A stretch of 64,000 nucleotides of DNA from Candidatus Poribacteria bacterium. GTDB lineage: Bacteria > Poribacteria > WGA-4E > WGA-3G. Every line of letters starts with the position of its first letter. The stretch's first letter is position 1. The translations under genes were made by a program, and so were the position numbers. Below the pieces are notes generated by a model. That model searched no databases, was not told the DNA's origin, and was given only the letters and a program-made list of their open reading frames with translations. This document shows, piece by piece, positions 12,208 to 43,911 of the stretch. The stretch spans positions 1-64,000 of the forward strand of contig JAJECN010000061.1 of NCBI GenBank assembly GCA_022821965.1, in the 5' to 3' direction.

Positions 12208-13002
12208 ATGAAAACGATGATTTTATCAACCCTCTTCGGACTTCTGCTCGTTTTTGCGGCAAATGCAGATTTTCTACCAGAGGCAAACAGTGATGCGTTT
12301 GGACTGGAATATGGGGAATCAATCGCTGGTTTTATCCCGAACGCGCCTAAGATTGATGGAAAACTTGACGACTGGAAGTATGCTGTCTGGGTCGCATTTG
12401 ACTCAGAGGATGAACTGCTTCGAGGGCAAGGGGCATGGAAAGGGAAAGACGATCTCACGATGACCTGGTCAACCATGTATGATGACAAAACCTTCTATTT
12501 CGCAGCGGCGGTGCGTGACGATATATTTGCACCAGCGGCAAATGCTGGTCAACCTTGGGTAGGCGACACAATCTTTCTGTACATCGATTGGGAGCAAGTG
12601 GGAGCTGGACCGCCTGCATGCAAGCCGAATTTCGCCTTTATCAACAAGAAGGCACTCGTCACCGACTTCAGTGGGGTCAAAAATCCAAATCTCCCGAAGT
12701 CCGATATAGCGATCGTGCCGACACCGGAATTGGGCAAAGGCGGCATGATTTATGAGGTGGCGATGCCGTTTGAATGGCTCACGAAGGTAAAAGTTGAGGA
12801 GGGGACTGAAGTCGGGTTCACACCCGGATATGAGGAAGGCACGGATAATCCAGAGAAGAAGGCAGGTCTTGTGTTCATGGATTGGCACGGATTGAATCCA
12901 GACGAATCCTCGAATCTTGGCACTTTAATCTTTGGCGAGCCGCTTGCTGTTGATGCAGCGGGCAAATTCACACTAACGTGGGGGGCGTTAAAAAAATTTT
13001 GA
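12208..13002 (+). CDS. Secreted CBM9-like carbohydrate-binding-domain protein with C-terminal tail motif
   Basis: The ATG follows AAAGGAG by 11 nt. A Sec signal (about residues 1-20, ending ANA) precedes a single domain that looks like the family 9 carbohydrate-binding fold: IDGKLDDWKYAVWVAFD (about 50-66), WSTMYDDKTFYFAAAVRDDIF (about 91-111), WVGDTIFLYID, and YEVAMPFEWL. Such domains bind sugars and often appear in secreted proteins of this group. The last 19 residues end in AVDAAGKFTLTWGALKKF, the same tail type found at 14134, 21701 and 42943. There is no catalytic domain. A short hairpin (GGCAC/GTGCC, 13010-13024) follows the stop codon. Confidence 0.8.
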   Translation: MKTMILSTLFGLLLVFAANADFLPEANSDAFGLEYGESIAGFIPNAPKIDGKLDDWKYAVWVAFDSEDELLRGQGAWKGKDDLTMTWSTMYDDKTFYFAAAVRDDIFAPAANAGQPWVGDTIFLYIDWEQVGAGPPACKPNFAFINKKALVTDFSGVKNPNLPKSDIAIVPTPELGKGGMIYEVAMPFEWLTKVKVEEGTEVGFTPGYEEGTDNPEKKAGLVFMDWHGLNPDESSNLGTLIFGEPLAVDAAGKFTLTWGALKKF

Positions 13003-13009
13003 AGTCATC

Positions 13010-13024
13010 GGCACGCACTGTGCC
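13010..13024. repeat. Small hairpin related to the GGCACAC repeat
   Basis: GGCAC-GCACT-GTGCC forms a 5-bp stem directly after the CBM9-like gene and is followed by CG. It resembles the element at 13951, 14058 and 35950. Confidence 0.35.
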
Positions 13025-13036
13025 GCTTGCTGTTGA

Positions 13037-13954
13037 ATGATGTCTGAAAAAACGCGAAATCAGGAAGAACTCCTTGTTCAACTGCTGGAGAAGGCAGATA
13101 ACTTACTAACTCGTTTAGGCGGGCTCCCAATTCAATCGTCAAGTACGCTACTGGACACTGAACTTGATGACTACATTGCTTTTCGGTGGCGAGCACAGAA
13201 TGGATCGGGGCACCTAATTCCGGTTAAATATCCGAATCTTGTGGGACTATCGGATTTAATTGGAATAGAGAGGCAGTCCACAGAACTGGATCGGAACACA
13301 CGCCAGTTTCTACACGGACTACCCGCCAACCACGTTCTGTTATGGGGCGACCGTGGCACTGGTAAATCTTCGCTTGTGAAGGGAATGCTATCGCGCTATG
13401 CCGATGAGGGACTTCGGTTAATCGGAGTCAGTAAAGAAGGACTTGTGCATCTGCAGGAGATTGCCGAGGTGTTGTGGGAACGTCCCGAACGCTATCTCCT
13501 TTTTTGCGACGACCTCGCCTTTAACGAAGACGAACCCGAATATCGCGAGTTGAAAGCGATGTTGGAAGGCGGAATCTCTGCTTGCCCAGACAATATTCTC
13601 ATCTATGCTACCTCAAATCGCCGACATCTGATGCCCCGACAGGTTCGAGAAAACCGGTATCCCCAGAATGACGAAGATGAATTATATCCGCGGGAAGCGA
13701 CGGAAGAAAAGGTCTCATTAAGCGACCGTTTCGGGCTGCGTCTCGCTTTCCAACGAATTTCACAAGATACTTATTTACAGATTGTCTCCCATTATGCCCA
13801 GAAACGCGGACTCTCCGTTCCGACGGAGGCATTACACCGCGCGGCATTGGAATGGGAGGCATCCTCAAGTGGGCGTTCAGGACGTATCGCTTATCAGTTT
13901 GTTACTGACCTCGCTGGGCGATTGGCTCTTGAATCAAATACAGATGCAAAGTAG
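13037..13954 (+). CDS. AAA ATPase of the DUF815 family
   Basis: The 305-residue cytoplasmic protein has an N-terminal helical region, then a P-loop ATPase: Walker A GDRGTGKSS (104-112), Walker B YLLFCDDLAF (about 153-162), a sensor-like ATSNRRHLMP segment (about 199-208) and an Arg-rich C-terminal lid (SGRSGRIAYQ). This matches DUF815 proteins, whose biological role is not established. Two adjacent ATGs (13037 and 13040) are possible starts and neither has a clear ribosome site. The final 23 codons and the 3' flank are duplicated in tandem immediately downstream (107-bp period), which suggests recombination at the gene tail. Confidence 0.85.
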   Translation: MMSEKTRNQEELLVQLLEKADNLLTRLGGLPIQSSSTLLDTELDDYIAFRWRAQNGSGHLIPVKYPNLVGLSDLIGIERQSTELDRNTRQFLHGLPANHVLLWGDRGTGKSSLVKGMLSRYADEGLRLIGVSKEGLVHLQEIAEVLWERPERYLLFCDDLAFNEDEPEYRELKAMLEGGISACPDNILIYATSNRRHLMPRQVRENRYPQNDEDELYPREATEEKVSLSDRFGLRLAFQRISQDTYLQIVSHYAQKRGLSVPTEALHRAALEWEASSSGRSGRIAYQFVTDLAGRLALESNTDAK

Positions 13955-13980
13955 TAGGCACACGCCGTGTACCGTAACAA
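13951..13980 (+). repeat. GGCACAC hairpin element, copy 1
   Basis: GTAGTAGGCACACGCCGTGT followed by ACCGTAACAA. Stem GGCACAC/GTGTACC has one mismatch. It overlaps the TAG stop of the DUF815 gene. Confidence 0.6.
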
Positions 13981-14057
13981 ACAACAGGACGCGTTGCCTA
14001 TCAGTTTGTCAACGATCTCGCTGGACGGTTATCACTTGAGTCAAATACACATGCAAA

Positions 14058-14087
14058 GTAGTAGGCACACGCCGTGTGCCGTAACAA
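14058..14087 (+). repeat. GGCACAC hairpin element, copy 2
   Basis: Same element as at 13951 with a perfect 7-bp stem GGCACAC-GCC-GTGTGCC, in the second copy of the tandem duplication. Confidence 0.6.
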
Positions 14088-14133
14088 ATAATTGGCACGG
14101 TTTCTGATCGCGCCTTTATGTATGGAGATTTTT

Positions 14134-14769
14134 ATGAAAAATCGATTGATGTTTTCTGTAATATTCACGCTCTTCTTGAGCGGTATACTTCTGATACAAA
14201 TCGCAGATGCTGTGCCGAAAAACGGTACGTTGCGGGTCAGTGGTGATAACACTTGGGTTGTGTTCATTAACGGTGAAGAGGTCGCAGCAAGTGGAAACTG
14301 GCAAGTCCCAACCGTCAGTGAATTTAAGCTGGACAAAGGCTTCGCACAGATTGCCGTTTATGTCCACGACGCCGAACCCGGTGCCGCCGGTAGAGGCGGA
14401 TTCCTCGCCGATATTATCCTTGACGCTAAGCCCGATTACATCGGAACGGGTGAAGATGGCTGGCGATGTGATACCGGTAAACTCATCGCTGATCGGAAAG
14501 ATGGCTGGGAAAAGGTTGATTTTGACGACAGCAAATGGGAAGATGAACTCGAAATTTATGAAAAATTCGGGGCAGGTATCTGGGGGTTCGGTGCTGCAAT
14601 CATGCGGCAAGTTCTCAAAGACCCAGATTGTGAGGCGAATTGGGTATGGTGCGGTCCTAACGACGGCGAAGATGACATCTATTTCCGATACACCATCGGC
14701 ACACTTCCCGTGGAACCTCAAGATAAACTCGCGACGACATGGGCACGCATTAAAAACGATGCTAAATAA
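14134..14769 (+). CDS. Secreted galactose-binding-domain-like protein with C-terminal tail motif
   Basis: The start is the ATG at 14134, preceded by GGAG with a 6-nt gap; an upstream TTG would place 14 residues before the signal peptide. A Sec signal (about 1-27, ending ADA) is followed by a compact beta-rich domain: NGTLRVSGDNTWVVFINGEEV (about 31-51) and GFAQIAVYVHDAEP, as in galactose-binding-like or PA14-like folds of extracellular proteins. Four Cys residues lie in the second half (WRCDTG, PDCEANWVWCG). The protein ends in VEPQDKLATTWARIKNDAK, the shared tail motif. Role and ligand are unknown. A terminator-like hairpin follows. Confidence 0.75.
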   Translation: MKNRLMFSVIFTLFLSGILLIQIADAVPKNGTLRVSGDNTWVVFINGEEVAASGNWQVPTVSEFKLDKGFAQIAVYVHDAEPGAAGRGGFLADIILDAKPDYIGTGEDGWRCDTGKLIADRKDGWEKVDFDDSKWEDELEIYEKFGAGIWGFGAAIMRQVLKDPDCEANWVWCGPNDGEDDIYFRYTIGTLPVEPQDKLATTWARIKNDAK

Positions 14770-14803
14770 ATGAGTTAACTGTAGACGGTTCATTACTCGC
14801 GGA

Positions 14804-14825
14804 GGGACGGTTTCTACACCGTCCC
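14804..14825. terminator. Hairpin between convergent genes
   Basis: Perfect 8-bp stem GGGACGGT/ACCGTCCC with a 6-nt loop, touching the stop codon of the minus-strand aminotransferase gene at 14826. There is no long T run, so termination efficiency is uncertain. Confidence 0.5.
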
Positions 14826-16118
14826 TTACAACCTATCAATTACCCGCGCAATCACTTCAAAAACCGTCTCAATATCCGATTCTGCAAGGCACGAATAAGC
14901 CACCCTTAACTCCGTTTCGCTGAGTGCAATCGTGCCGATGCCGTGTTCTTCAAGAAGCTGCTGCCGAACCACTTCCGCGTTCCCAGATTTAAGGCTTAGA
15001 CACATAAAATAGCCAGCATGACTCGGATACACCTCCCAAAGTTTGGCATATCGGGCATCTGACGTAATTTCTTTTGTTTTCAACGCGCGTGCCTTGAGTG
15101 TCTCATAGTTGTGTTGTTTTTGATCGGCATGCCCCGGAGCCTTCATCGCTTCAAGGATGAGTGTTTGAGAGATCTGTGAGGCACCGGAGGTATTCGCTCG
15201 AATCAGTCCACTGAGTTTCTGTTCAAGGGGTTGCATTGCTGCCGCTCCGAGACCGAAACTCATAAATCCGACCCGTAAGCCCCACGCATACTCCTCCTTC
15301 GTTGCCCCGTCTATCTTTACAGGGACCACATTCGGGTGGCATCCGGCCAATAGTCCAAAGAGCGATTCTCGCATAACCGATGCATCGTACCACAGACCTG
15401 CATAGGCATCATCAATCATAACGAGGATGCTACATCCAGCATCGGCACGCGCCACAATCGCGTCCACAATATGCTGTGCTTCTGTTGCGGTAATCGCATA
15501 GCCAGTGGGATTGTGCGGAAAATTCAGGAGGACAAGCAATTTTTCGTCGGTAGCGTCAGCAAGAGCCTCATGAAATCCGAGCGTGTTAAAGCCGTTAGAA
15601 GCATTAAAGAATGGATAGGTCTGGATATTCGCACCCGCTTTGGTTTGGAAAATAAGTCGGTAATTGCCCCAAATCTTATCCGGTAGAATGAGCGTGTCCC
15701 CGCTGTCTGTGAAGAGTTCCGCGAGTAAACTAAACCCATGTGTCATTCCACTCGTCACAATTGGTAGACTCAATGCTGTCTTTGCGAGTGAAGGGTTTTC
15801 TTTTATAAGATGCATCTTCCACGCGTCCCGTAATTCCGGTTGACCTAACACGGGGGCGTATCCGTAGATACTTTCCAAGGGCAACGCTGGCACGAATTCC
15901 CGTGAAACGGCGAGATGCATCATATCTCTGTCTTCCAAAGCGATTGCGCGCGTCGCGTTGAAACGGTACGCTTTCGCATTCGCCTCCGCTGTCTGGCTTA
16001 AGATACCTCTCGGTAGGTAAACGCGTTTTCCTAACTTGGAGAGTAGCGCGGAGACGACTGGTGTTGCATTTTGAATCTGCTTGTTTAATTCAATTGCTAA
16101 GGAATTTAAATCTTGCAT
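14826..16118 (-). CDS. PLP-dependent aminotransferase, class I/II fold
   Basis: The 430-residue protein is a fold-type I aminotransferase. Visible elements are YGYAPVLGQPELR near 85-97, the SGMTHGFSLLAELFTDSGDTLILPD segment (about 123-147) that covers the PLP phosphate loop, LLNFPHNPTGY (about 197-207, the conserved Asn-Pro-Thr-Gly), IDDAYAGLWYD with the PLP-binding Asp and Tyr, DGATKEEYAWGLRVGF with the Schiff-base Lys (about 272), and RVAYSC with the carboxylate-binding Arg near the C-terminus. It acts in the cytoplasm; amino-donor specificity is not predictable. It converges on the secreted protein gene upstream and is otherwise alone. Confidence 0.87.
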   Translation of the reverse strand: MQDLNSLAIELNKQIQNATPVVSALLSKLGKRVYLPRGILSQTAEANAKAYRFNATRAIALEDRDMMHLAVSREFVPALPLESIYGYAPVLGQPELRDAWKMHLIKENPSLAKTALSLPIVTSGMTHGFSLLAELFTDSGDTLILPDKIWGNYRLIFQTKAGANIQTYPFFNASNGFNTLGFHEALADATDEKLLVLLNFPHNPTGYAITATEAQHIVDAIVARADAGCSILVMIDDAYAGLWYDASVMRESLFGLLAGCHPNVVPVKIDGATKEEYAWGLRVGFMSFGLGAAAMQPLEQKLSGLIRANTSGASQISQTLILEAMKAPGHADQKQHNYETLKARALKTKEITSDARYAKLWEVYPSHAGYFMCLSLKSGNAEVVRQQLLEEHGIGTIALSETELRVAYSCLAESDIETVFEVIARVIDRL

Positions 16119-16286
16119 ATTTTCTCTAAATTATGAACAATAATAAGCGTGTAAAACACTAAAAATACAAAGAAGTTATTCGACATTAATTGTGGACTGT
16201 CGCCCACTTAATGTCAACCGATTTTTGTCACCATTCGTTATAAGAAGAAAAAAGTTTAGACGCATCACATAGCACAAGGAAAAAAC

Positions 16287-17390
16287 ATGAAATCACTTTT
16301 GAAAAACCTGACATTTATCATTATTTTCCTCCTTTTTGTCGGTTTCGGCTTCAGCGTCTATGTTCTTCAAGCACCCCCTGTTGAGCAGAAAGGTGCGCCG
16401 AAACTGCAGATTCACACACGTACGGCACTGCGGAGCAGACCTACAGTAAACTCAAAACCGATTCGTTATACCACAGATGTATACCGTTTTAGTATGGATC
16501 GGCAATACATTAGCAATCTGAATAGCGGTAAATTAGAGCGTGAACTTCTGTTTAGCGCAGGATTGGCGCATCGCGCACGGTTGAAAGCACAACGTTTAGA
16601 TGAATCTCTAAAAACAGCGACCGATTGGCAAAAGATGTTTGCCGATTTTACTGAGGACATTCGATTCCGTTCAGGTGCATCCCCTATTGAAGTCTTGCTG
16701 AGCGGCGAGGAGTGGTTGCTCAGGGATACCACCGGTGCCGCTTATACAGTCATAAGAACCGACGACCGTGTTGATGTTTATCTGCCCGATCTAAGAGAGG
16801 TATTTGACGCAAACAAAGTTTCCCTATCAACTGATCTGGAAATCTCCATTAAGCAGACAAACAAACGATGGCTCATCACGGATAAAGGATACAAACAGGC
16901 TTACAGCATTGTGAACGGTGAGGGTAAACTCAATGTCTTTCAGCAATCGAAGTTTGAAATTCTGACGTTCCTGTTTGAAATAGATGCAGCACTGCAAAAT
17001 TCGCTTGCACAAGAAAAGTTGCCTACTGAATTGAACCAAGAATTTGTGATGGAAAAAATCCCATTGTCGCGACGGGCGAAAGTCTCCGCGAACGAAAACG
17101 GGACAAGTTGGCAAATAACCAGTCCTCCCTTGAAGTATAATATCCGAAATGAGGACGGTCGATTGAAGGTTTATCTTGATCTTGAGAGTAGATGGCTCCT
17201 CGTCAAGGTTGATGACAGCATAAAAGGTTGGGTGCAAAGCGAGCGCGGAACCATTTTCAAGCCATCCCCACCAACACCCAGTTCACGCCAGCAAGTCAAA
17301 GAACGGCTTCTCGTACTCATTGATGAATTGAAAGAGAAAGTTGGACTCTCCGATGCAGAAAGTAAAGCCGAAAATACTGCGTCCCGGTAG
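16287..17390 (+). CDS. Membrane-anchored or secreted protein with SH3-like C-terminal segment
   Basis: The 367-residue protein has one N-terminal hydrophobic segment (about residues 8-29) without a clear cleavage site, so a signal anchor is likely. The rest is soluble and extracytoplasmic. Near residues 300-325 the pattern WLLVKVDDSIKGWVQSERG resembles a bacterial SH3 (SH3b) strand pair, and a similar Trp-containing segment ending in GYKQAY occurs near 195-207. The C-terminal 40 residues form a charged helix. I recognise no named family. The 3' end overlaps the next gene by 38 bp, which fits a translationally coupled pair with a peptidoglycan hydrolase; a cell-wall role is therefore a guess from context. 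Confidence 0.7.
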   Translation: MKSLLKNLTFIIIFLLFVGFGFSVYVLQAPPVEQKGAPKLQIHTRTALRSRPTVNSKPIRYTTDVYRFSMDRQYISNLNSGKLERELLFSAGLAHRARLKAQRLDESLKTATDWQKMFADFTEDIRFRSGASPIEVLLSGEEWLLRDTTGAAYTVIRTDDRVDVYLPDLREVFDANKVSLSTDLEISIKQTNKRWLITDKGYKQAYSIVNGEGKLNVFQQSKFEILTFLFEIDAALQNSLAQEKLPTELNQEFVMEKIPLSRRAKVSANENGTSWQITSPPLKYNIRNEDGRLKVYLDLESRWLLVKVDDSIKGWVQSERGTIFKPSPPTPSSRQQVKERLLVLIDELKEKVGLSDAESKAENTASR

Positions 17391-18405
17391 CCGCGTCGCA
17401 GCGATTTCGATGTCTTGGGGCGGTCCCGGCACTGTTCCGTACCGCTACCAGATTGGTAAACAGCAATTTGAAGAAGAATTCGGCGTACAAGTTGTTGAAA
17501 CGGAACACGCCTTACGCGACGCAGACTGGCTTGCCAGAAATCCCAAGGCGCGTGCTGACGATTTAATGGAGGCTTTTACTGATCCAGCAATCGACGGTAT
17601 CATCTCAACGATCGGCGGTGAAGATTCCATCCGCACGCTGCCCTACCTCGACCTGGACCTGATTCGGAAGAACCCCAAGGTCTTTATGGGATATTCGGAT
17701 ACGACTATTTCGCACGCGGTCTGCTTTAAAGCAGGCATTGTGTCATTCTACGGTCCCTCGTTTATGGCAGGATTTGCCGAAAACCGCGGGATGTTTCCGT
17801 ATATGGTGGATGCCGTTCGACGTACCCTCTTTTCTACTGAACCCATTGGTGTTATTGAACCGAACCGAACGGGCTGGACAGTTGAATATCTGCCGTGGGA
17901 GGATCCTGAAAATCAATCCATTCGCCGAAAACTGAACCCCTGCACGGGTTGGAAGTTCCATCAGGACGAAGGTGTCGTTGAGGGGCAGCTTTTCGGGGGC
18001 TGTGTTGAGGTCTTGGACTGGCTTCGCGGCACCGACTACTTCCCTTCTGCTAACGATCTCCAAGGTGCCGTTCTCTTTCTGGAGACCTCTGAAGAGGCAG
18101 CACCGCCTTCGTTTCTGGCAAGGTTTGTGAGATGCATCGCAGCGATGGGCATCCTTGAAGGACTTAACGGTATTCTACTCGGACGACCCGGCGGAGGCGT
18201 TGATCCCGACACTTTCCACGAATACGACGATGCCCTCTGTAAAACTGTCCGCGAAGAACACGGGTTAAACGACATGCCAATTGTCACCAATATGGACTTC
18301 GGACACACAGATCCGATGTTCGTCATCCCGATAGGCATAAAGGTTCGTATTGACTCCACCAAACAGGAAATCGCCATTGACGAAGCAGCAGTTACCGAAA
18401 ACTGA
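17353..18405 (+). CDS. LD-carboxypeptidase / MccF-like serine peptidase (S66)
   Basis: The product (350 residues from the ATG at 17353; a TTG at 17341 is possible) has the S66 family catalytic triad: nucleophile Ser115 in MGYSDTT, Glu244 in LFLETSEE and His318 in FGHTDP. The N-terminal RPGSRVAAISMSWGG and the IISTIGGEDSIR segment are typical. S66 enzymes either trim murein tetrapeptides (LdcA) or cleave acyl-sulfamoyl nucleotides (MccF, microcin C immunity). The pattern here resembles the MccF-like group somewhat more, but assignment between the two is uncertain. There is no signal peptide, so it is cytoplasmic. It overlaps the preceding gene by 38 bp. Confidence 0.88.
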   Translation: MQKVKPKILRPGSRVAAISMSWGGPGTVPYRYQIGKQQFEEEFGVQVVETEHALRDADWLARNPKARADDLMEAFTDPAIDGIISTIGGEDSIRTLPYLDLDLIRKNPKVFMGYSDTTISHAVCFKAGIVSFYGPSFMAGFAENRGMFPYMVDAVRRTLFSTEPIGVIEPNRTGWTVEYLPWEDPENQSIRRKLNPCTGWKFHQDEGVVEGQLFGGCVEVLDWLRGTDYFPSANDLQGAVLFLETSEEAAPPSFLARFVRCIAAMGILEGLNGILLGRPGGGVDPDTFHEYDDALCKTVREEHGLNDMPIVTNMDFGHTDPMFVIPIGIKVRIDSTKQEIAIDEAAVTEN

Positions 18406-18423
18406 CACAAAAAATTAGTCTTT

Positions 18424-18565
18424 GTAGGTTGGGTTGAACGGATTGCCCCAGAACGATTGTCTGTCAAAAAACACTAATCGCTTTGGACAGTTGACAGTGT
18501 GAAGATAGCGAGTGAAACCCAACACTTTTTCTACACCGAATTTCTCATTTCCGTTCAACCCAACC
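18424..18565. repeat. GGGTTGAACG dispersed repeat, copy 1
   Basis: A 16-bp perfect inverted repeat, GGTTGGGTTGAACGGA at 18427-18442 and its complement at 18550-18565, flanks a segment containing AGTGAAACCCAACA at 18511-18524. Related copies are at 29190 and 36683. It fills most of the 290-bp gap before the glycosyltransferase gene, in which I see no coding sequence. Confidence 0.75.
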
Positions 18566-18696
18566 GATTGCACGCTCGGCATAAAATAAAACTAAGCTAA
18601 AGCATATAGCACTGCAACAACGGCGCAGTGCGGGACCGATATGACACCCGTATTTACTAAAGGAGTCTGATTGCACGCTTGGCGTTAATTAAAAAT

Positions 18697-19887
18697 ATGA
18701 AGATTCTTTTTCTTTCCCCTACCGTGCCATTCCCGCTCACCGATGGCGGACGCATCCGGGTGTTCAACCTCCTCAAACAGATCGCACAGAAAAGCGACGT
18801 AACACTCCTCGCCTTAGAGACACAACCAACAGATGCAGACGGTGTTTCCCAACTCCAGCAATTAGGTATTCAGGTCCACCTCGTCCCAAACGCACCGACA
18901 CTTCCACGTCTATCACTCGGCACACTCGTCAACGCCTTCTTCAAACGACAACCCATCACTGTGGCGCGCTACGACCTCCCTGTTTATCGTCAGAAGTTCA
19001 AAGAGTTAATCGCAACCGATACTTTCGATCTCGTCCATTATGAGATGTTCCACACAGCACAGTTTCGGACAGAGACAGATCTGCCCAGCGTGCTTTCACA
19101 ACAGAACGTCGATTCCGCGATCTGGCGGCGACTCTGCAGTGAAACCATCAACCCGTTCTATAAATTCGCATACTGGACGCAGCAACTCGCATTCCAACGC
19201 TATGAACAGGTGCTAAGTCCGAAATTCGATGCCGTAACGTGCACCTCCGACATCGATGCCGCCGTTTTCCAACGACACTGTGCGGAAGACGTTATTGAGA
19301 TAATTCCGAACGGTGTCGATGTCGCACATTACCAGCCCAACTTTTCCGCTGAGGCTCTCGCACACCTCATATATATCGGGAGCATGGACTGGTATCCCAA
19401 CGAAGACGCTGTCGCTTTTTTTGCCGATGAGGTGTTACCCCAGATTCACGCCGAGGTCCCCGAGGTCAAATTTTCGATTGTTGGTGGAAATCCATCGGCA
19501 CGTGTCCAAAAGTTAGCGGAGAGAGAAGGGATTGTTGTCACCGGACGTGTACCGGAGATTAAACCTTACTTCGCCGAGGCGACGGTTTTTGTTGTGCCGT
19601 TGCGCATTGGGAGCGGCACCCGCCTGAAAATCCTTGAAGCGTTAGCGATGGGCAAAGCGATTGCCTCTACCTCGGTCGGTGCGGAGGGATTGGATCTCAA
19701 AGATGGCGAGGAAATCTTCATCGCTGACGAACCGACGGTCTTTGCCGAAGCGGTCACCCGATTGCTCAAAGACCCATCCCTTCGCCGTAGAATTGGCGAA
19801 AACGGTCGCGCCCGCGTAGAGCAGGATTACGATTGGCAGAGCATCGCCGAGAAACTCCACCTACTCTATACCAAAATCCTCCACTAA
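18697..19887 (+). CDS. Glycosyltransferase family 4
   Basis: The 396-residue protein (ATG at 18697; a TTG at 18679 would add six residues) is a GT-B retaining glycosyltransferase. The N-terminus MKILFLSPTVPFPLTDGGRIR has the acceptor-side glycine loop, IIPNGVDVAHYQP (about 206-218) is the linker, LIYIGSMDWYPNEDAV begins the donor domain, and RIGSGTRLKILEALAMGKAI (about 306-325) carries the EX7E nucleotide-sugar motif. It probably adds a sugar to a cell-surface glycan in the cytoplasm or at the inner membrane. The segment resembles the sugar transferases of the PEP-CTERM/exosortase type, but no such cluster is here. It stands alone. Confidence 0.88.
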   Translation: MKILFLSPTVPFPLTDGGRIRVFNLLKQIAQKSDVTLLALETQPTDADGVSQLQQLGIQVHLVPNAPTLPRLSLGTLVNAFFKRQPITVARYDLPVYRQKFKELIATDTFDLVHYEMFHTAQFRTETDLPSVLSQQNVDSAIWRRLCSETINPFYKFAYWTQQLAFQRYEQVLSPKFDAVTCTSDIDAAVFQRHCAEDVIEIIPNGVDVAHYQPNFSAEALAHLIYIGSMDWYPNEDAVAFFADEVLPQIHAEVPEVKFSIVGGNPSARVQKLAEREGIVVTGRVPEIKPYFAEATVFVVPLRIGSGTRLKILEALAMGKAIASTSVGAEGLDLKDGEEIFIADEPTVFAEAVTRLLKDPSLRRRIGENGRARVEQDYDWQSIAEKLHLLYTKILH

Positions 19888-19907
19888 GATCACAAGAAAA
19901 CCTTTGG

Positions 19908-21478: not shown

Positions 21479-21700
21479 CTAATCTCCTTATCCAAGTAAT
21501 AGGCTTCACAGACCGTCGAATTGGACTATCAAAAGTATACCACACAAAATCGGAAAGAGCAAGATGTAAGGAACTGGAAATCCAGAACTATAGACGCAAT
21601 CCCAAAAAGTTGATTTTCTTTCTCCGATGTGCTAATATGTAACCAACTTGAACAAAACCCTCCAGTCTCAATAACGAACCACTTAAAAGGAGCTATTCCG

Positions 21701-22450
21701 ATGAAAGTTTTTATGTTAACTTTAACAATCACCCTTCTGCTGATGGGGAGCATTTCAGGGATTGCCGGTGAAGATCCAGATTTAGTGGCGTACTTCCCCT
21801 TTGACGGGAGTGAAGAGGATGCATCTGGAAACGATAACCACGGCGAAATTACAGGCGGATCCAAGTGGGTTAAAGGCAAATTCGGAGATGCAATCGAACT
21901 TGACGCAGCCGCTTATGTCGAACTACAAGCCTCCGACTCTCTCCACGGAGATTTCTTCAAAGAAGACCCGTTCACAATTTCCGCATGGATAAACCCCAAC
22001 TTCGAGGGAACCACATGGGAACATATCTGGCGGAGCTTACCTGGAGCTTCTGGACACAACACCTTATTCATTAACAAAGACCAAGGACTCATCTCATGGC
22101 GCGGACGGGTCGGCGGATGGACAGTCCTGTGTCAAACTGATGGCGGAATCGTTGAAGCGGATAAGTGGATGCACGTAGCCGTTACAGGCGATGGCGATAA
22201 ATTCAAAATTTATGCCGATGGAGAGATGGTCGCCGAGACCGATTTCAAAGAAACCGATGGTGCAAACGCCACTTACCGAATCGGTGGTTCCGGGGGCGAG
22301 ACGTTCGCCGGTCTAATGGACGATTACGCAGTCTTCTCCCGTGCGTTAGATGAAGATGAAATCAGTCTGATAATGGACAGCGTTGAAACGTTCCTGCCCG
22401 TTGAACCACAAGGCAAGTTGGCAACGCGCTGGGCAGAACTCAAACGCTAA
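21701..22450 (+). CDS. Secreted LamG (concanavalin-like) domain protein with C-terminal tail motif
   Basis: AAAAGGAG 8 nt before the ATG at 21701 fixes the start; an upstream ATG would put 24 residues before the signal peptide. The Sec signal (about 1-22) is followed by a LamG/concanavalin jelly-roll: LVAYFPFDGSEEDASGNDNHGE (about 27-48), FTISAWINP, WMHVAVTGDGDKFKIYADGE (about 161-180) and GLMDDYAVFSRALDEDEI (about 209-226). Such domains bind carbohydrate or protein ligands outside the cell. The C-terminus is VEPQGKLATRWAELKR, the shared tail. There is no catalytic domain. Confidence 0.85.
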   Translation: MKVFMLTLTITLLLMGSISGIAGEDPDLVAYFPFDGSEEDASGNDNHGEITGGSKWVKGKFGDAIELDAAAYVELQASDSLHGDFFKEDPFTISAWINPNFEGTTWEHIWRSLPGASGHNTLFINKDQGLISWRGRVGGWTVLCQTDGGIVEADKWMHVAVTGDGDKFKIYADGEMVAETDFKETDGANATYRIGGSGGETFAGLMDDYAVFSRALDEDEISLIMDSVETFLPVEPQGKLATRWAELKR

Positions 22451-29180: not shown

Positions 29181-29189
29181 ATGTCAGTT

Positions 29190-35944: not shown

Positions 35945-35949
35945 ACAAA

Positions 35950-35982: not shown

Positions 35983-35999
35983 ACGAAAAGGAGAAAACA

Positions 36000-36560: not shown

Positions 36561-36569
36561 GTGAAAGCC

Positions 36570-36598
36570 TTGTCTTATAGATAGATTTAGGGTATAAT
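36570..36598 (+). promoter_or_regulatory. Promoter driving a structured leader
   Basis: TTGTCT (36570-36575), 17-bp spacer, TATAAT (36593-36598). Transcription would start near 36606, within the left arm of the inverted repeat, and run about 200 nt before the next start codon at 36808. Confidence 0.6.
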
Positions 36599-36720
36599 TC
36601 TGCTAAGAGAAAAAGGGGACAAATCGGATCCAGTCGTATTTTATGTAACACTCTCCTTTAGGTTTCTTTGTCGATGAGGAAAGTGTTGGGTTTCACGTCG
36701 ATTTGTCCCTTTACAGCAGA
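36599..36720 (+). repeat. Long imperfect hairpin in the DUF4405 gene leader
   Basis: Arms TCTGCT (36599-36604) with AGCAGA (36715-36720), and GGGACAAATCG (36616-36626) with its exact complement (36699-36709), form an about 120-nt stem-loop. The right part overlaps the GGGTTGAACG-type repeat at 36683-36750. Confidence 0.6.
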
Positions 36721-36750
36721 TTCTTCGTACACTTCCATTCAACCCAATAC
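36683..36750 (-). repeat. GGGTTGAACG dispersed repeat, copy 3 (reversed)
   Basis: GTGTTGGGTTTCAC (36683-36696) and TTCCATTCAACCCAATAC (36733-36750) are the reverse complement of the arms seen at 18424 and 29190. Confidence 0.65.
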
Positions 36751-36807
36751 AAGTCATTGGCATTCACCTAAAAGCGACTGCTCTAATGAATCAAATTGGA
36801 ACAACCT

Positions 36808-37293
36808 ATGAAAAACCTAAACACTCGACAATGGTCCACCCCTCTTACGATAGGCACAGGTATCTTTGTTGCGACTACCGGTCTACTTATGTTCTTTGTT
36901 ATGGAAGATCCGTTCAAGTTCGCGCATGAACTCGTTGGCATCGGGTTTTCGATTGCCATTGTCCTTCATGTATTGAGCAATTGGCAGTCATTCAAGAGGT
37001 ATTTCTCACAACGCAGTGTTGCTATCATAGCAATTGCTTGGTTGATCGGTATCAGCTTGGTTACGACCTCGGCCATCCTGAGTAAAGGAGAACCCGAAGA
37101 ACTAATCGTTACCCAAATCGAGAAGACTTCCATCACTCTGCTTGCACCAGTCGTTGGCATGGAGGTAAAAGAACTTGTCGATCAACTCAGCAAGGATGGT
37201 TTCGCTGTTGATGATCCTGAAATGTCTATTGAACAACTCGCTGACCAACACGAAGCGGATACGGATGACATCCTTCTCTCAGTGTTCCGTTAG
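36808..37293 (+). CDS. DUF4405-like membrane protein
   Basis: The ATG at 36808 gives 161 residues (a TTG at 36796 would add four). Three membrane segments are evident (about 11-30, 41-58 and 71-91). HELVGIGFSIAIVLHVLSNW carries two spaced His residues in adjacent helices, a heme-ligand-like pattern seen in DUF4405 cytochrome-like proteins. A soluble C-terminal tail (about 98-161) reads as a small acidic helical domain (GMEVKELVDQLSKDGFAVDD). It is expressed from a promoter 210 bp upstream with a structured leader. Electron transfer is a possible role but is not shown. Confidence 0.7.
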   Translation: MKNLNTRQWSTPLTIGTGIFVATTGLLMFFVMEDPFKFAHELVGIGFSIAIVLHVLSNWQSFKRYFSQRSVAIIAIAWLIGISLVTTSAILSKGEPEELIVTQIEKTSITLLAPVVGMEVKELVDQLSKDGFAVDDPEMSIEQLADQHEADTDDILLSVFR

Positions 37294-37324
37294 TTAACAA
37301 ACCACGCACTAAATGTGTGTGAGT

Positions 37325-38230
37325 TTAACCCAACCTATGCGCCTGCTGTGCCGAGACTTGCCTCTCCCATTCCTTCCAAGTCGGTTTGTCGCCTTCAGTC
37401 AGTACGACGAGCGGCACCCTGCCGCCTGCTAGTGCTTTGCTTTTTACGAATTCAGCAGCTTCACGCTGTTCAGCAGTCAAGTCAGCGCGGTCCGGTGTAG
37501 GAAAATAGCGGAAGTCGATACTCCAACGGGATTTCCGTGTCGTGTTCACTTTACTGGTATGGACGCAGAGATTCGACATGAACAAGGCACCACCCGGTTT
37601 AAGCGGAATAGGCACCGGCGTGCCACGCGCTTCGACATCTGCCTCCATCCGGACATTTGAATCCGCGCCGCGTGCCCCGTCCAATAGACCCCAGCGGTGA
37701 CTGCCCGGAATAACCCAGCAACATCCATTCTCAACTGTCGCTTCGACCAGCGGCACCCACACCGTAACCATGTGGAGCCCTCCAGTGTGCTTCTCCTTTT
37801 TCCCGATAGTCGACTGGTCCAAATACTGGCTGTCTTGGTGCCACGGGAACGATGTAATCACGCTTCCAGGGAGTTTCGTTCGTAACGCTGGTGTACCGAT
37901 ATTCGAGACTTCAGCACCCAAGAGCAGGCGGAGCACATCGAGAACACCCGGTAGGTTGTAGAGATCATAAAACTCACGTCCAAACATACCAAAAGCCCAG
38001 TTGCGAGGTAGTATGTCTAACTCCTCACAGATAGCAGCATAGCGTCGTTCAAAGGACTCGTCTTCATAACGCGACGACAGCTTGCCTTCCGTATACAATT
38101 CATCGCTATAGGCATCAACCTTTGCCTTAATAAAGTCGCGGATTGGATCTAAATCTCGGTTGTCAATAATGTTTCTGAGCACCACGTAACCATCACGTTC
38201 ATAAGAGGTCTTGATTTCTTGATCTGTCAT
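37325..38230 (-). CDS. Phytanoyl-CoA dioxygenase family protein
   Basis: The ATG at 38230 is chosen because AAGGAG lies 7 nt upstream and the conserved N-terminus TDQEIKTSYERDGYVVLRN begins there; a longer frame from 38281 lacks a site. The 301-residue product has the Fe(II) ligands in PWHQDSQY (HxD, near 138-140) and a distal His in CVHTSKVNTTRKSRWSIDFR (near 220), with the following Arg residues for 2-oxoglutarate. GCCWVIPGSHRWG is a typical core strand. It is divergent from the enolase-superfamily gene at 38347; PhyH and mandelate racemase-type genes often neighbour one another in this lineage. Substrate unknown. Confidence 0.9.
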   Translation of the reverse strand: MTDQEIKTSYERDGYVVLRNIIDNRDLDPIRDFIKAKVDAYSDELYTEGKLSSRYEDESFERRYAAICEELDILPRNWAFGMFGREFYDLYNLPGVLDVLRLLLGAEVSNIGTPALRTKLPGSVITSFPWHQDSQYLDQSTIGKKEKHTGGLHMVTVWVPLVEATVENGCCWVIPGSHRWGLLDGARGADSNVRMEADVEARGTPVPIPLKPGGALFMSNLCVHTSKVNTTRKSRWSIDFRYFPTPDRADLTAEQREAAEFVKSKALAGGRVPLVVLTEGDKPTWKEWERQVSAQQAHRLG

Positions 38231-38346
38231 CAGCCAACTCCTTCCATCGCTATTGTAGAATCTCAAAGGATATGTTATCATGAATGCGCAGCGGACGCAA
38301 TACCAATTGATTTTTTAACCGATTTCATACACGAAGGGGAACAGAC

Positions 38347-39480
38347 ATGAAAATCATCGACGTGAAAGCGATGACGTTAAAAGGTTACAAACAGTGGAAC
38401 TACGTCCAGATTGAAACCGACGAGGGATTGACAGGGATAGGCGAGGCACATCCTGGGGCGGGAATCGCCGAGATTATCTTGCAATTCAAGCGGATACTCG
38501 TTGGCGCAGACCCAAGAAATATAGAACCTCTTTACAACCGGATGATTGGAGCAGCAAGTAATCGATATGCGATGGGTTTATCGGCTATCGGTGGAATAGA
38601 AACTGCGCTGTGGGATCTGCTCGGGAAAAGCCTTGGGGTGCCGGTTTATCAGTTGTTAGGTGGAAAATATCGAGATCGCATTCGACTCTATGCTGATGTT
38701 GGACATGGAAAAGGGAACACGCCGGAGGGTTGGGCACAACGAGCCAGAGAGGGCGTTGCAGACGGCTACCAAGCGATTAAATTTGACATCGATAACTCCG
38801 CAAACGAACTTAAACAGGATGCAGTCAATCGAGAATTAAGGACAGCGGAATTGCAGAAAATGACATCGTTGGTTGCCGCCGCACGGGAGGCTGCTGGTGA
38901 TGAAATTGACATCAGTATTGATTGTCATAGTCTATTCAGCGTTCATTCGGCAATGAAGCTTGCGGAACTTTTGGAGCCGTTCGACTTAATGTTTCTGGAG
39001 GACCCTGTACCGAACGACAATGTTGAAGCGATGGCGAAGGTAAGTTCTGCAACGTCTATCCCCATTTGTACAGGTGAATTCCTATTTCGTCGAGACGGTT
39101 TCAGAGAACTGATTCAGACACAAGCCTGTGATATGCTCCATGTCGATGTCTCTGGAACAGGCGGGATACTTGAGGCAAAGAAGATTGCGGATTTGGCGGA
39201 TCTGTATTATATGCCGTTTGCAGCACACAACATCACATCCCCCATTGGTATGACAGCGACAGCACACGTTTGCGCCGCTGTGCGGAATTTCATCGTCATG
39301 GAACTCCCATATCACGCCGATCAGGTCGAGTGGCGGTGGGACCTCGCTATTTCTGAGGAACCGCTCATGCAAGATAACGCATTTGTGGTGCCGGAGCAAT
39401 CCGGATTGGGTGTCGAAATTAATGCAGAAGTCGCGCAAGAACATCTAATGCCCGGATCTGACCACTTTGGCACATCTTAA
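38347..39480 (+). CDS. Mandelate racemase/galactonate dehydratase-like enzyme (enolase superfamily)
   Basis: The 377-residue protein has the enolase-superfamily capping domain and barrel. Key residues are Lys145 in the KxD motif IKFDID, metal ligands Asp192 (SIDCH), Glu218 (FLEDPVP) and Glu244 (CTGEF), and a general base dyad Asp267/His294 (HVDVSG, AAHNITSP). This set is typical of sugar-acid dehydratases of the galactonate/mannonate type acting in the cytoplasm; the substrate is probably an aldonic or related hydroxy acid. AAGGGG precedes the ATG. It is divergent from a PhyH gene with a 116-bp gap and differs from the fuconate dehydratase at 1569 in motifs (KxD instead of KxK). Confidence 0.85.
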   Translation: MKIIDVKAMTLKGYKQWNYVQIETDEGLTGIGEAHPGAGIAEIILQFKRILVGADPRNIEPLYNRMIGAASNRYAMGLSAIGGIETALWDLLGKSLGVPVYQLLGGKYRDRIRLYADVGHGKGNTPEGWAQRAREGVADGYQAIKFDIDNSANELKQDAVNRELRTAELQKMTSLVAAAREAAGDEIDISIDCHSLFSVHSAMKLAELLEPFDLMFLEDPVPNDNVEAMAKVSSATSIPICTGEFLFRRDGFRELIQTQACDMLHVDVSGTGGILEAKKIADLADLYYMPFAAHNITSPIGMTATAHVCAAVRNFIVMELPYHADQVEWRWDLAISEEPLMQDNAFVVPEQSGLGVEINAEVAQEHLMPGSDHFGTS

Positions 39481-40164
39481 ACTTCCCGCGATCTATAGCG
39501 AAATAATACCATATCTACTTGAATAACTTTCATATTTATATGCATTGTGGAAGTTAACTTATGGTATATCTATAATTCACAACTTCGTCTTATGTGCCTC
39601 TCAAAGTTGCTAATACCTTCGACTTCTATCACCTTAAAAGACGCGATGACGTGTCGAATTCACCACAGAAAACCACAGAAATTTGACGGATTTAATCGTC
39701 CATAAAATTTTCAAAATCGCTTCTCATCCCTTTGGTAGCTTAGGTTCTCAGTCGATTTTGAGAGACCTGAAAATTCTGTGGTTTTCTGTGGTATTTGATT
39801 TTTGTTGTTTTTTCACCATTAAATTCATAAAACGGATCAGATGTTTTTGGTGTTGCGTAAGAAACGTTCTAAATCTTCCTTATCAGGCGTTGGAAATTTC
39901 TGATTAAAAATTCAAATTTTTTCAATTATGACAACTCTGCAACATATCGACTGTAAAATTGCGTCACTAACAATTGTAAGCCTAAATTGGTTGACTTACG
40001 CAAACAGGCGATAAAAGGTTTTCAGGCTACAAACAGCTGAACCTTAAAAGGACGTGTGTTTTCAAAAGTAGTGCCCCACACGCTAATTGCTATGGGGACC
40101 TCGATTCGTAGTCGCGCAATGTATTGCGCGTTGTGTCCGCCCTATTAATTATGGGAGGCTTCCG
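39481..40164. other. 684-bp gap with a MITE-like inverted repeat
   Basis: No supported gene is present; open frames here are short and mostly built from the inverted repeat. The gap holds the inverted repeat at 39662-39792, A/T-rich sequence, a weak ECF-type match (GCAAC at 39939-39943, 18 bp, CGTC at 39962-39965) and, near 40105-40125, the hairpin GCGCAA-TGTA-TTGCGC before the sigma-WD40 gene. Confidence 0.6.
39662..39792. repeat. Inverted repeat element, MITE-like
   Basis: A 19-bp arm ACCACAGAAAACCACAGAA (39662-39680) has its exact complement at 39774-39792, enclosing 93 bp. Each arm itself contains two ACCACAGAA units. The size and perfect terminal arms fit a small non-autonomous element or a very long hairpin. 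Confidence 0.7.
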
Positions 40165-42921
40165 ATGGAAAAAGATGACTTTAAACTAATTCACAGCGTA
40201 TTGTCAGGCGACGAGCATGCTTTCAGTATTTTAGTTAAAAAATACCAAAAAAGCGTCCACGCCTTGGCATGGCGGAAAGTTGGAGATTTCCATATCGCTG
40301 AAGAAATCACCCAAGACACCTTCCTGCAAGCACACAAAAAACTCGCTTCGTTGAAAAATCCGAATCAGTTTGCCGGGTGGCTTTACGTGATCACAGATCG
40401 GCTTTGCAGATCATGGTTACGGAAGCGGCAACTGCGTACACAATCACTGGAAGCGACTGATGAGGAAACACTCGAAGAAACGGATTACTCGAACTATATC
40501 CGCGAACAACGTGAAGATACAGCCGTTGAGCATCGTCGTCAAATCGTGCAAAAACTCATGGAAAAACTGCCGGAAAGTGAACGGACCGTGATGGTACTTT
40601 ACTATCTCGGAGAAATGAATTGTAAGGAAATTAGCAAGTTTTTAGGTGTGTCCTCAAATACGGTTAGAAGTCGACTTCACCGTGGGCGAGAACGATTAAA
40701 GAACGAAGAACAAATAATTCAAGAGACCTTTGGTAGCATCCCATTAAGTCCAAATCTCATCGAAAACATCATGGGGAACATTGATGCCATCAAACAGACA
40801 TCCCCTTCAGGAGATAAGCCGTTTCTACCGTTAGCGGCTTTAGGTTCATCTGTTATTTTGGTTATTTTGTTGATGGGAGCGAGCAATCAATTCATCGCGC
40901 GTTCTCAGCAGCCTTATAGCCTTGATGCACAATCAGAACCTACAATTGAAATTGTTGATGCGCCTGTTATTCATAATATCATATCAAAACCTGATGTGCA
41001 AAACCGAGTTGGCAGCGATACTATCCCCGGTAGAAACAGCAACAAAGGTCTACCAACAGGAACTAAGTCTATGAAAAATAATACAGCACAAGAATCCATG
41101 CAATGGAATCTACCAGAAGATGCGAAAGCACGCCTCGGTAAAGGTAAGATAAACGAAATACAGTATTCTTCCGATGGGGCAATTCTCGTTGTTGCGACGG
41201 GTATCGGTATTTGGCTCTACGACACAACAACGTATCAAGAGATCGGACTTCTTACGGCACATACGAGTGCAGTCAAGTGCCTTGCCTTCAGTCCTGATGG
41301 ACACCTCCTTGCGAGTGCAGACGACGCAGGTACCATTCTACTTTGGCATAGAAGCACAGGCGCGCAAAAAGTGCTCACAAGGGGCACGGAATCGATCTCA
41401 AACTTGACATTCAGTCCCGACGGACAAACACTTGCCAGTGGAAGTGGCGGTACTATCCGATTTTGGGATACCATCACTGGAGAAGAAAGGGATGCGTTCA
41501 CAGGACTTCCAGCAAATATCGGTGATTTATCATTTAGTCCCGATGGGAAAACAATTGTGAGTGTAACTTGGGATGGCGAAATCTGTATATTGGATGTGAT
41601 CGCCGGTAAACTTCAGAGAACATTTACTGTGCGTATGACGGATGTTGTCTTTAGCGTTGCCTTCAGTCCGGATGGTGAAACAGTTGCTATTGGCAGTAGA
41701 GATGGTAACATCTACCTCTCAGATTTAAACACGGGTAAACTCAAGCAAAAACTCATTGGACATTCGGTAGATGTTCAAAGCATAGTGTTCAGTTCAGACG
41801 GCAAAACTCTCGCAAGTTCATCATATATAGATGAAACAGTCCGTATCTGGGATGTCCACACAGGCAAACACAGGCGAACCCTTACTGGACACACGTGGGA
41901 TATTCCGGGTTTAGCCTTCAGCCCAGATGGCAAAACCCTCGCGAGTAGCGAAAGTGGTGATGGCACCATCCGTTTCTGGGATGTCCGCACAGGCGATCAA
42001 AAACATGCAGTTACTGGATATACGGGATTTATTGATGATTTTGCATTCGGGTCCAATGGACAGACAATCATAATTGGGTATGGTGCTGGCACCATCCGCT
42101 TATGGGATACACACACTGGACAACACGTCAAAACGTACAATAAGTTTAAGAATGCCATGTCAAACGGGGCAATAGCAAACATACGATTCACCTCCGATGG
42201 AAAAGCGCTCACTTGGGGCAATGAAGGCATGCGCCTTTGGGATGCTGATACAGACGAACTCAAAATGATACTCACGATAAGTGAGTGGGGTAACCATACT
42301 ATCGGACGCAGTCCCGACGGAAAGATAATCGCTATTGCGTTCGATAAGGACAATCTTATAAGATTATGGGATATGCACACAGGTGAACAGAGGCTAACAC
42401 TCACTGGACACACGGAGGGAATTTTTTGCTTAGCATTTAGTCCTGACAGCAAAACCCTCGCCAGCACAAGTGACGATAATACACTCCGCCTCTGGGATGC
42501 ACAAACAGGAAAGAACAAGAAGGTATTTACTTTAGATAGTGCTTGGAGGAACGATGTTGCAGATTGGCGGATAGATAGTACTTGGTGCAGCATCGCATTT
42601 AGTCCCGATGGAAAAATGCTCGCCTGTGGCGGTGGTGAAATCATTCTCTTATGGGATATAGATACATGGAAGACCAAGATGAGACTCACCAGACGGACAC
42701 ATCGGGTGTTTGATTTAGCGTTCAGTCCGGATGGAACTACCCTCGCAAGTGCGGGTTTCGAGAGTAACATCAACTTATGGGATCCACACACCGGTGAGCA
42801 CAAGAAAACACTGACGGGACATACAGCTTGGGTGAGAAGCATCGCGTTCAGTCCGGATGGTAAAACCCTTGGCAGCTGTAGTGACGATGGCACGGTGCTC
42901 ATCTGGGAGATAAATCCGTAA
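40165..42921 (+). CDS. Membrane-anchored ECF sigma factor with extracytoplasmic WD40 propellers
   Basis: GGGAGG 6 nt before the ATG at 40165 sets the start of this 918-residue protein. Residues about 1-185 are an ECF sigma factor (DEHAFSILVKKYQKSVHALA, EEITQDTFLQAHKKL, and region 4 GEMNCKEISKFLGVSSNTVR). A membrane segment lies at about 221-245, followed by a linker with YSLDAQSEPTIEIVDA and KPDVQNRVG. From about 325 to the end there are 14 WD40-type blades of the form AFSPDGKTLASxSxDxTIRLWD, enough for two seven-bladed propellers. Topology would place sigma inside and the propellers outside, a one-protein sensor and transcription factor. The linker is nearly the same in the BNR version at 44028. 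Gemmata-type planctomycetes have ECF-WD40 proteins, so the architecture has precedent. Confidence 0.9.
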   Translation: MEKDDFKLIHSVLSGDEHAFSILVKKYQKSVHALAWRKVGDFHIAEEITQDTFLQAHKKLASLKNPNQFAGWLYVITDRLCRSWLRKRQLRTQSLEATDEETLEETDYSNYIREQREDTAVEHRRQIVQKLMEKLPESERTVMVLYYLGEMNCKEISKFLGVSSNTVRSRLHRGRERLKNEEQIIQETFGSIPLSPNLIENIMGNIDAIKQTSPSGDKPFLPLAALGSSVILVILLMGASNQFIARSQQPYSLDAQSEPTIEIVDAPVIHNIISKPDVQNRVGSDTIPGRNSNKGLPTGTKSMKNNTAQESMQWNLPEDAKARLGKGKINEIQYSSDGAILVVATGIGIWLYDTTTYQEIGLLTAHTSAVKCLAFSPDGHLLASADDAGTILLWHRSTGAQKVLTRGTESISNLTFSPDGQTLASGSGGTIRFWDTITGEERDAFTGLPANIGDLSFSPDGKTIVSVTWDGEICILDVIAGKLQRTFTVRMTDVVFSVAFSPDGETVAIGSRDGNIYLSDLNTGKLKQKLIGHSVDVQSIVFSSDGKTLASSSYIDETVRIWDVHTGKHRRTLTGHTWDIPGLAFSPDGKTLASSESGDGTIRFWDVRTGDQKHAVTGYTGFIDDFAFGSNGQTIIIGYGAGTIRLWDTHTGQHVKTYNKFKNAMSNGAIANIRFTSDGKALTWGNEGMRLWDADTDELKMILTISEWGNHTIGRSPDGKIIAIAFDKDNLIRLWDMHTGEQRLTLTGHTEGIFCLAFSPDSKTLASTSDDNTLRLWDAQTGKNKKVFTLDSAWRNDVADWRIDSTWCSIAFSPDGKMLACGGGEIILLWDIDTWKTKMRLTRRTHRVFDLAFSPDGTTLASAGFESNINLWDPHTGEHKKTLTGHTAWVRSIAFSPDGKTLGSCSDDGTVLIWEINP

Positions 42922-42942
42922 ATACCTCTGACTGGGCTATTT

Positions 42943-43911
42943 CTATTGTTTGATCTTGAGAGCTCCCCATAGGGTTGACGACTTGCCTTTGGGAGAAACA
43001 ACTAAGGGTTTTGAGGACCAAGTCGGTGTCAGTGCCAGTTGTAAATCCTTAGCAATCGCAATCGCTCCGTTACCATCAGCGTTCATCACGTATATGCTGT
43101 AAAGACCGTCACGCTTTGATGAATAGGCAATCTGTTTCCCGTCTGGCGACCACGTTGGATGTGTGTCATCGGATCTACTGTCCGTTAGGTTTTCTTCCGC
43201 GTTGCCATCCACATTAATGATATAGATGTCCCAGATTTTGTTTCGGTAAGACGCAAATGCGATCTGTGTGCCATCAGGAGACCACGCCGGTTGTGTGTCC
43301 CAGTGTTTATCATCAGTGATCCGCCTTATGTCCGTGCCGTCGGTGTTCATCACAAAGATATCCGAACCAAAGATACGGGTTGATTCAAATGCAATCTGTT
43401 TTCCATCTGGCGACCACGCGGGTTGGCTGTCTAAGCCTGGATGGTTGGTGATCCGTTTTAGATTCGTACCGTCGGTATCCATTAAATAAATTTCCACATT
43501 TCCATCTCGTTCTGATGTGAAGGCGATCTGTGTTCCATCTGGCGACCACGCAGGCACACCGTGATCCGCAGGATGTTGGGTTAAATTAATCGGTTTCCCT
43601 CCATCTGTGGTCATTACATAGATTTCAAAGAAAAATCCACCCCGATCTGATACGAAAGCGATCTGTTGACCGTCTGGCGACCACGTCGGTGCCGCGTCAT
43701 ATAGTGCGTGATGGGTAAGCTGCCGGAGCCCCTTACCATCAGCACTCATTACATAAATTTCTTGATTTTTAGGGCTGCCAGACATAAAAGCGATTTGTGC
43801 TTCAGCACCGAGGATTATACCAATCAATGCTACAGTCCCCAATAGCACAAAAACAATAAAACTTTTTTGCAGCTTGTTTTGCAAAGTCGATGGTTTTAAT
43901 TGGTTTCTCAT
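42943..43911 (-). CDS. TolB-like PD40 beta-propeller protein with C-terminal tail motif
   Basis: GGAGG 5 nt before the ATG at 43911 favours that start over one four codons upstream. The 322-residue product has a signal sequence or anchor (about 14-38) and six to seven PD40 repeats of the form PxWSPDGxQIAFxSxRdGxxEIYVMxxDG, as in TolB propellers. The final residues VSPKGKSSTLWGALKIKQ match the tail on the secreted proteins at 12208, 14134 and 21701. It lies 116 bp after the sigma-BNR gene on the same strand and converges on the sigma-WD40 gene, so three propeller genes of different families are adjacent. Ligand unknown. Confidence 0.86.
   Translation of the reverse strand: MRNQLKPSTLQNKLQKSFIVFVLLGTVALIGIILGAEAQIAFMSGSPKNQEIYVMSADGKGLRQLTHHALYDAAPTWSPDGQQIAFVSDRGGFFFEIYVMTTDGGKPINLTQHPADHGVPAWSPDGTQIAFTSERDGNVEIYLMDTDGTNLKRITNHPGLDSQPAWSPDGKQIAFESTRIFGSDIFVMNTDGTDIRRITDDKHWDTQPAWSPDGTQIAFASYRNKIWDIYIINVDGNAEENLTDSRSDDTHPTWSPDGKQIAYSSKRDGLYSIYVMNADGNGAIAIAKDLQLALTPTWSSKPLVVSPKGKSSTLWGALKIKQ

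Follow-up and report, generated by a model that had tools for sequence, protein, structure and literature searches.

A short C-terminal peptide on unrelated exported proteins is a probable sorting or retention tag of Poribacteria

Introduction

Several bacterial systems place a recognizable signal or module at the C-terminus of exported proteins. The CTD of the T9SS (TIGR04183 / PF18962) is found on many unrelated Sec-exported proteins; it is 40-100 residues long, adopts a beta fold and contains motifs B, D (GxY) and E. Shorter versions have been described: in HBP35 the last 22 residues are enough for T9SS targeting, and Prevotella intermedia encodes CTDs of 40-55 aa (PMC11969387, PMC11285876). 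PEP-CTERM proteins, the counterparts of exosortase, carry a short C-terminal homology region in which a transmembrane segment follows the signature, and a single genome can encode dozens of unrelated exported proteins bearing it. GlyGly-CTERM (rhombosortase) and MYXO-CTERM (myxosortase) are lineage-restricted tripartite tags with many targets, whose hydrophobic helix is cut by an intramembrane protease; MYXO-CTERM is phylum-wide in Myxococcota (PMC11980579). Type I dockerins are C-terminal modules as well, with a calcium-binding fold of about 60 residues that docks exported proteins non-covalently.

Poribacteria are uncultivated bacteria that are abundant in sponges. Their proteins were reported in 2014 to contain TIGR04183 domains, while structural T9SS genes were not found (PMC3909097). 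The window analysed here is a stretch of 64,000 nucleotides from a poribacterial draft genome of 5.69 Mb. A sequence-only reading of this window described four secreted proteins of different folds that end in a similar short motif, and proposed that the motif acts as a sorting or anchoring tag. Here this C-terminal tail is examined in the source genome, across the phylum and beyond.

Anatomy and position of the tail

The tail can be written as L-x-V-[ED]-P-x-G-K-L-[AT]-T-T-W-[GA]-x-[LI]-K, or in short form as about LxVEPxGKLATTWGxLK, and spans about 18-25 residues. Numbered from its tryptophan, the consensus of 111 tails reads L(-12) x V(-10) [E/D](-9) [P/A](-8) x [G/D](-6) K(-5) L(-4) [A/T/S](-3) T(-2) T(-1) W(0) [G/A](+1) x [L/I](+3) K(+4). 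Only 1-10 residues, mostly polar or basic, separate the motif from the stop codon. The consensus first proposed was correct in outline but too loose, the strong positions being V(-10), K(-5), L(-4), T(-2), W(0) and K(+4). Among 295 tails, K occupies -5 in 289, V occupies -10 in 275 and T occupies -2 in 268; W and K(+4) were demanded by the search expression, and their invariance is in part by construction. When one tail is taken from each of 22 groups of carrier bodies, the information content rises sharply at -12 and stays high through +4, with little before.

A strict degenerate DNA pattern encoding K-[L/F]-x-T-x-W-x-x-[L/I/M/F]-K matches 86 places in the source genome and none when the pattern is reversed, a count beyond chance. 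The strict motif lies in 85 distinct frames of 60 aa or more, all of which stop 1-10 codons after it; the one extra match (C39) falls in a short frame of 43 codons. A profile from tail alignment A2 is matched at no fewer than 150 places in the same genome (150 of the 272 candidates scored). Where tail peptides are identical, their coding DNA still differs at about 4-10 of 30 bases, and this synonymous variation indicates that selection acts on the protein.

The confinement of the motif to C-termini extends to a larger gene set. A profile of own-genome tails, run against 1,256 genes from the fetched loci, gives 290 C-terminal matches, no internal match and none in reversed sequences; these genes come from stretches around matches and are enriched in tail genes, so that the tagged share of exported proteins is not readable from them. 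Searches of the tail segments against Pfam and NCBIfam models return no match. NCBIfam 'TafC fimbrial' matches occur in 41 of 111 members, and in the one examined the match is to the LamG domain and lies below the cut-off. In the PDB, the tail profile finds nothing beyond a weak match of 10 residues in an adhesin (E 0.046), which is taken as chance, and a literature search that mostly did not reach subscription journals found no description of the tail.

Carrier proteins and export signals

The four tails of the window are listed in Table 1; they lie at the positions given in the sequence-only reading, and the proteins translate as it describes. All four proteins have Sec-like N-termini, and their bodies belong to four different similarity groups, in keeping with the earlier view that the chains are exported and that the rest of each belongs to a different fold.

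Table 1. Coordinates of the tail proteins of the window and of related loci (Lnnn, fetched loci; E, search E-value).
Feature	Location	Strand	Details
CBM9-like exported protein, 264 aa	window 12208..13002	+	Pfam CBM9_1 E 9.7e-7, residues 49-240; signal-like N-terminus MKTMILSTLFGLLLVFAANA
Its tail, variant copy	window 12943..12999	+	LAVDAAGKFTLTWGALKKF; protein ends PLAVDAAGKFTLTWGALKKF, then stop; profile E 5.5e-7
Galactose-binding-like/rhamnosidase-N-like exported protein	window 14092..14769	+	NCBIfam NF041573 E 3.4e-8, residues 44-166, far under its cut-off; no match in Pfam search
Its tail	window 14704..14766	+	LPVEPQDKLATTWARIKNDAK; protein ends TLPVEPQDKLATTWARIKNDAK, then stop; profile E 3.1e-10
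LamG (Laminin_G_3) exported protein, 273 aa	window 21629..22450	+	Pfam PF13385 E 1.5e-24, residues 96-246
Its tail	window 22394..22447	+	LPVEPQGKLATRWAELKR; protein ends FLPVEPQGKLATRWAELKR, then stop; profile E 1.6e-9
TolB-like PD40 beta-propeller exported protein, 326 aa	window 42943..43923	-	Pfam PD40 E 9.4e-58
Its tail, variant copy	window 42946..43005	-	LVVSPKGKSSTLWGALKIKQ; protein ends PLVVSPKGKSSTLWGALKIKQ, then stop; profile E 5.3e-6
Exported WD40 protein	window 5479-7446	-	end looks like dockerin (DVNGDGxVDxxDL repeats)
ECF sigma factor fused to WD40 or kelch propeller	window 40087-42921		ECF first, propeller C-terminal
ECF sigma factor fused to WD40 or kelch propeller	L049:5043-6995		ECF first, propeller C-terminal
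ECF sigma factor fused to WD40 or kelch propeller	L071:253-2211		ECF first, propeller C-terminal
HmuY-like protein	L085:7877-8536		plain signal and tail
HmuY-like paralogue	L085:9013-9756		lipobox SSFGC, read from sequence (classed SPI by signal script); no tail
LamG tail gene directly upstream of sprA	L227:2856-3626		
SprA-like gene (contig C42)	L227:3914-10636		diverged T9SS
PorU-like C25 protease gene (contig C42)	L228:1675-7902		diverged T9SS; FlgD_ig C-terminus
PorV-family gene (contig C42)	L228:7997-9070		diverged T9SS

Carriers are small, with a median of 263 aa and a single protein above 400 among 111 members. LamG bodies account for 59 of these members and DUF1080 (3-keto-disaccharide hydrolase) for 15; the tail is also borne by PD40/TolB-like, kelch, F5/8C, CBM4_9, CBM9, HmuY-like and unclassified bodies.

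Among 569 complete genes from the stretches around matches, a signal-peptide-like N-terminus, as called by a home-made simple hydrophobicity rule, is present on 85/85 genes with the strict motif compared with 184/484 genes without it. A restriction of the tail to C-termini and to exported proteins, which the sequence-only reading had asked to be checked, is thus what was observed. No signal was called on fourteen tail genes, most of which show, on reading, long or weak signal regions, truncation or doubtful starts. Lipobox calls are made on 6/281 exported tail genes versus 44/301 exported genes without a tail. On reading, the cysteine of those six falls within the hydrophobic core and is followed by a plausible signal peptidase I site, L119 being the least clear. 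Nearly all tail proteins carry a Sec signal peptide by this rule, with no convincing lipobox.

Relation of the tail to the attached fold

In the AlphaFold2 model of the LamG protein, built with 42 homologues, the pLDDT of the body is mostly above 90 while residues 264-273 fall below 50, even though no other part of the alignment is as conserved as the tail. The model of the TolB-like protein, built with only four sequences, shows a clear propeller and leaves residues 309-326 below 50; across the two bodies, most residues exceed 85-90. Low values of this kind are expected in a monomer model when a peptide becomes ordered only upon binding a partner, though they do not prove that one exists. The possibility that the tail is the last strand of a shared domain is ruled out by the 22 body groups and by its lack of placement on two folds. 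Frequent internal or cytoplasmic copies, or tails forming such a strand, were named by the sequence-only reading as the outcomes that a sorting or anchoring tag could not accommodate; both were looked for and neither was found, which supports that reading.

Homologues without the tail

Nineteen exported genes without a tail recognized by the regular expression are homologous to tail proteins. Among them are four with a terminal T9SS CTD, three lipobox proteins and one with a dockerin-like repeat at its end (the WD40 protein of the window); two are truncated or frameshifted, and most of the others have diverged tails that keep the tryptophan. In one ectodomain family, some members end in the tail and others in a T9SS CTD. 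The clearest pair consists of two adjacent HmuY-like paralogues, 49% identical, one having a plain signal and the tail and the other a lipobox and no tail. In two kelch proteins that are fused to an ECF sigma factor and have no signal peptide, the tail is absent or present as a decayed copy. The tail thus follows export and appears to alternate with known surface-attachment signals. This pattern is the main argument for a role in sorting or retention, and only a few families show the suggested interchange with lipobox, CTD and dockerin.

Fusions of ECF sigma factors to propellers recur in the sampled loci (Table 1). Some other poribacterial proteins combine Dockerin_1 with a T9SS CTD.

Distribution

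The tail is present in 85/85 Poribacteria genomes, covering 22/22 genera. Genomes poor in the strict pattern still give 26-62 profile matches, and dozens to more than 100 tail proteins are encoded per poribacterial genome. Of the 80 matches listed by a named scan across about 85,000 species, 78 are Candidatus Poribacteria. Outside the phylum, the MAG Pseudomonadota bacterium RHO2_bin_21 (G085) has five tail profile matches (L114, L229, L238, L244 and L249), located on look-alike exported proteins. No homologues of these proteins were found among the poribacterial loci examined, and the tail is absent from 57 other genomes of the same class (0/57). A 'Deltaproteobacteria' match (L141) consists of an isolated tail downstream of a stop and was left out of the count.

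A diverged T9SS in Poribacteria

A diverged SprA-like protein is encoded in 82/83 Poribacteria genomes; that of the source genome has 2,241 aa and matches with E 5.3e-43, under the curated cut-off. PorU-like C25 proteins occur in 25/25 genomes (E 1e-116 for the source genome's copy), and the PorV family (NF033709) is likewise found in 25/25, with 13-25 copies each, an unusually large set. T9SS CTDs are present in 30/30 poribacterial genomes tested, and in the source genome a PorV-family gene lies directly downstream of the PorU-like gene. A T9SS is probably present in Poribacteria, which corrects the 2014 statement that structural genes are lacking (PMC3909097), and the CTD on large proteins is likely to be its signal there.

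The tail bears little resemblance to that signal. Alignment of the tail with poribacterial CTDs by hhalign gives a probability of 0.2% and no profile similarity, tail segments are not matched by TIGR04183 or PF18962, and the GxY of motif D is absent from the tail consensus. The LamG tail gene directly upstream of sprA was considered as a link between the two and rejected; among the 20 genomes examined, this arrangement (also at L258-L260, L264 and L267) is confined to the window's genus.

Proposed function and alternatives

The tail is quite probably a short linear C-terminal sorting or retention tag of Poribacteria that acts after Sec and has no hydrophobic segment. This reading draws on the C-terminal lock, the exported-only carriers, the independence from the attached domain, the conservation at the protein level, the phylum-wide spread and the unpacked tail in two predictions. 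Sec export and then signal-peptide cleavage would precede recognition. An envelope protein would read the peptide specifically, through the K, L, T, W, L and K side chains that follow a V-E-P-x-G turn, and would in this way bring these small proteins, lectin-like or propeller, to the outer membrane or cell surface or keep them there. The tail would thereby achieve by a different mechanism what lipid anchors, T9SS domains and dockerins do. From these sequence patterns we infer both the surface location and the existence of a receptor, for which a dedicated protein or one of the PorV-family barrels are candidates. A further step can be proposed only tentatively, at slightly less than even credence: Poribacteria may have an envelope-targeting system of their own, apart from the T9SS, lipidation and dockerins, in which a receptor reads a W-centred C-terminal peptide of ~18 residues lacking a hydrophobic helix and thereby puts dozens to more than 100 small proteins per genome on the surface.

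It is possible, if on balance unlikely, that the tail is instead a minimal T9SS signal, with a PorV-family protein binding it as the last strand or strands of a CTD, the cargo passing via SprA, and PorU attaching or releasing it. The T9SS parts held by all genomes tested, the adjoining PorU-like and PorV-like genes, the ectodomain family with either ending and the short-signal precedents of HBP35 and P. intermedia all fit such a route, but the tail and the poribacterial CTDs differ in profile, in motif D and in length (about 18-25 vs 40-100 residues). Within the phylum co-occurrence says little, as both features are universal and tests of it have no power. In G085, five tail matches are accompanied by no match in a search for SprA; the assembly, of just 1.9 Mb, could be incomplete or mixed, and the missing SprA therefore weakens the T9SS reading rather than excluding it.

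Three other readings are less probable still. An amphipathic interfacial helix that binds the membrane or LPS directly, with no receptor, is improbable: L(-4), W(0) and L(+3) would lie on one helical face, the hydrophobic moment (-5..+5) peaks near 110 degrees and both AlphaFold2 models contain short low-confidence helices, yet the moment is nearly as high at 160 degrees, and the near-constant K(-5) and T(-2) represent more side-chain identity than membrane binding needs. That so many bodies are beta-sandwiches, LamG and DUF1080 above all, would suit an element of the mature fold that stabilises lectin-like proteins or drives oligomerisation. Such a role is nevertheless very improbable, given that kelch and PD40 propellers, HmuY-like and unclassified bodies carry the tail too, that close tail-less paralogues exist, and that AlphaFold2 leaves the tail unpacked despite its top conservation. 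That the tail is not a selected peptide but a DNA element, mobile or repeated, located at the ends of genes is scarcely credible; many copies per genome, some of them in tandem paralogues, recall such elements, but the codon variation among identical peptides refutes this origin, and the tail is always in frame, 1-10 codons before the stop.

A phylum-wide tag allows tagged exported proteins to be listed straight from sequence and offers a handle on many unannotated genes. It also defines a search target, its receptor, and the tag reading would add a class of C-terminal signal without a hydrophobic anchor.

Comparison with known systems

By sequence the tail is unlike the PEP-CTERM, LPXTG and T9SS CTD types, as the sequence-only reading had stated, with no such motif, segment or model match. 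No known CTERM or sorting model matched it. The tail shares with the T9SS CTD its place at the C-terminus of many unrelated Sec-exported proteins, the same genomes and a basic C-terminus, but it is W-centred, much shorter and without GxY, and it is carried by small proteins whereas the CTD is found on large ones. PEP-CTERM is comparable as a short region on dozens of unrelated exported proteins, but the tail lacks the transmembrane segment; an exosortase system can be rejected, since exosortase (PF09721) is absent from the source genome and from 80/83 genomes of the phylum, being present in 3/83. Neither an LPXTG motif nor a hydrophobic segment was found in the tails. Like GlyGly-CTERM and MYXO-CTERM the tail is lineage-restricted with many targets, but its position frequencies contain no GlyGly or invariant Cys, and it has no hydrophobic helix. 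Dockerins do occur in the source genome (L046, L051) and resemble the tail in being C-terminal, but theirs is a folded domain and the tail a short peptide. What the tail has in common with C-terminal sorting tags in general is that it is found at C-termini only, on exported proteins only, and on unrelated domains.
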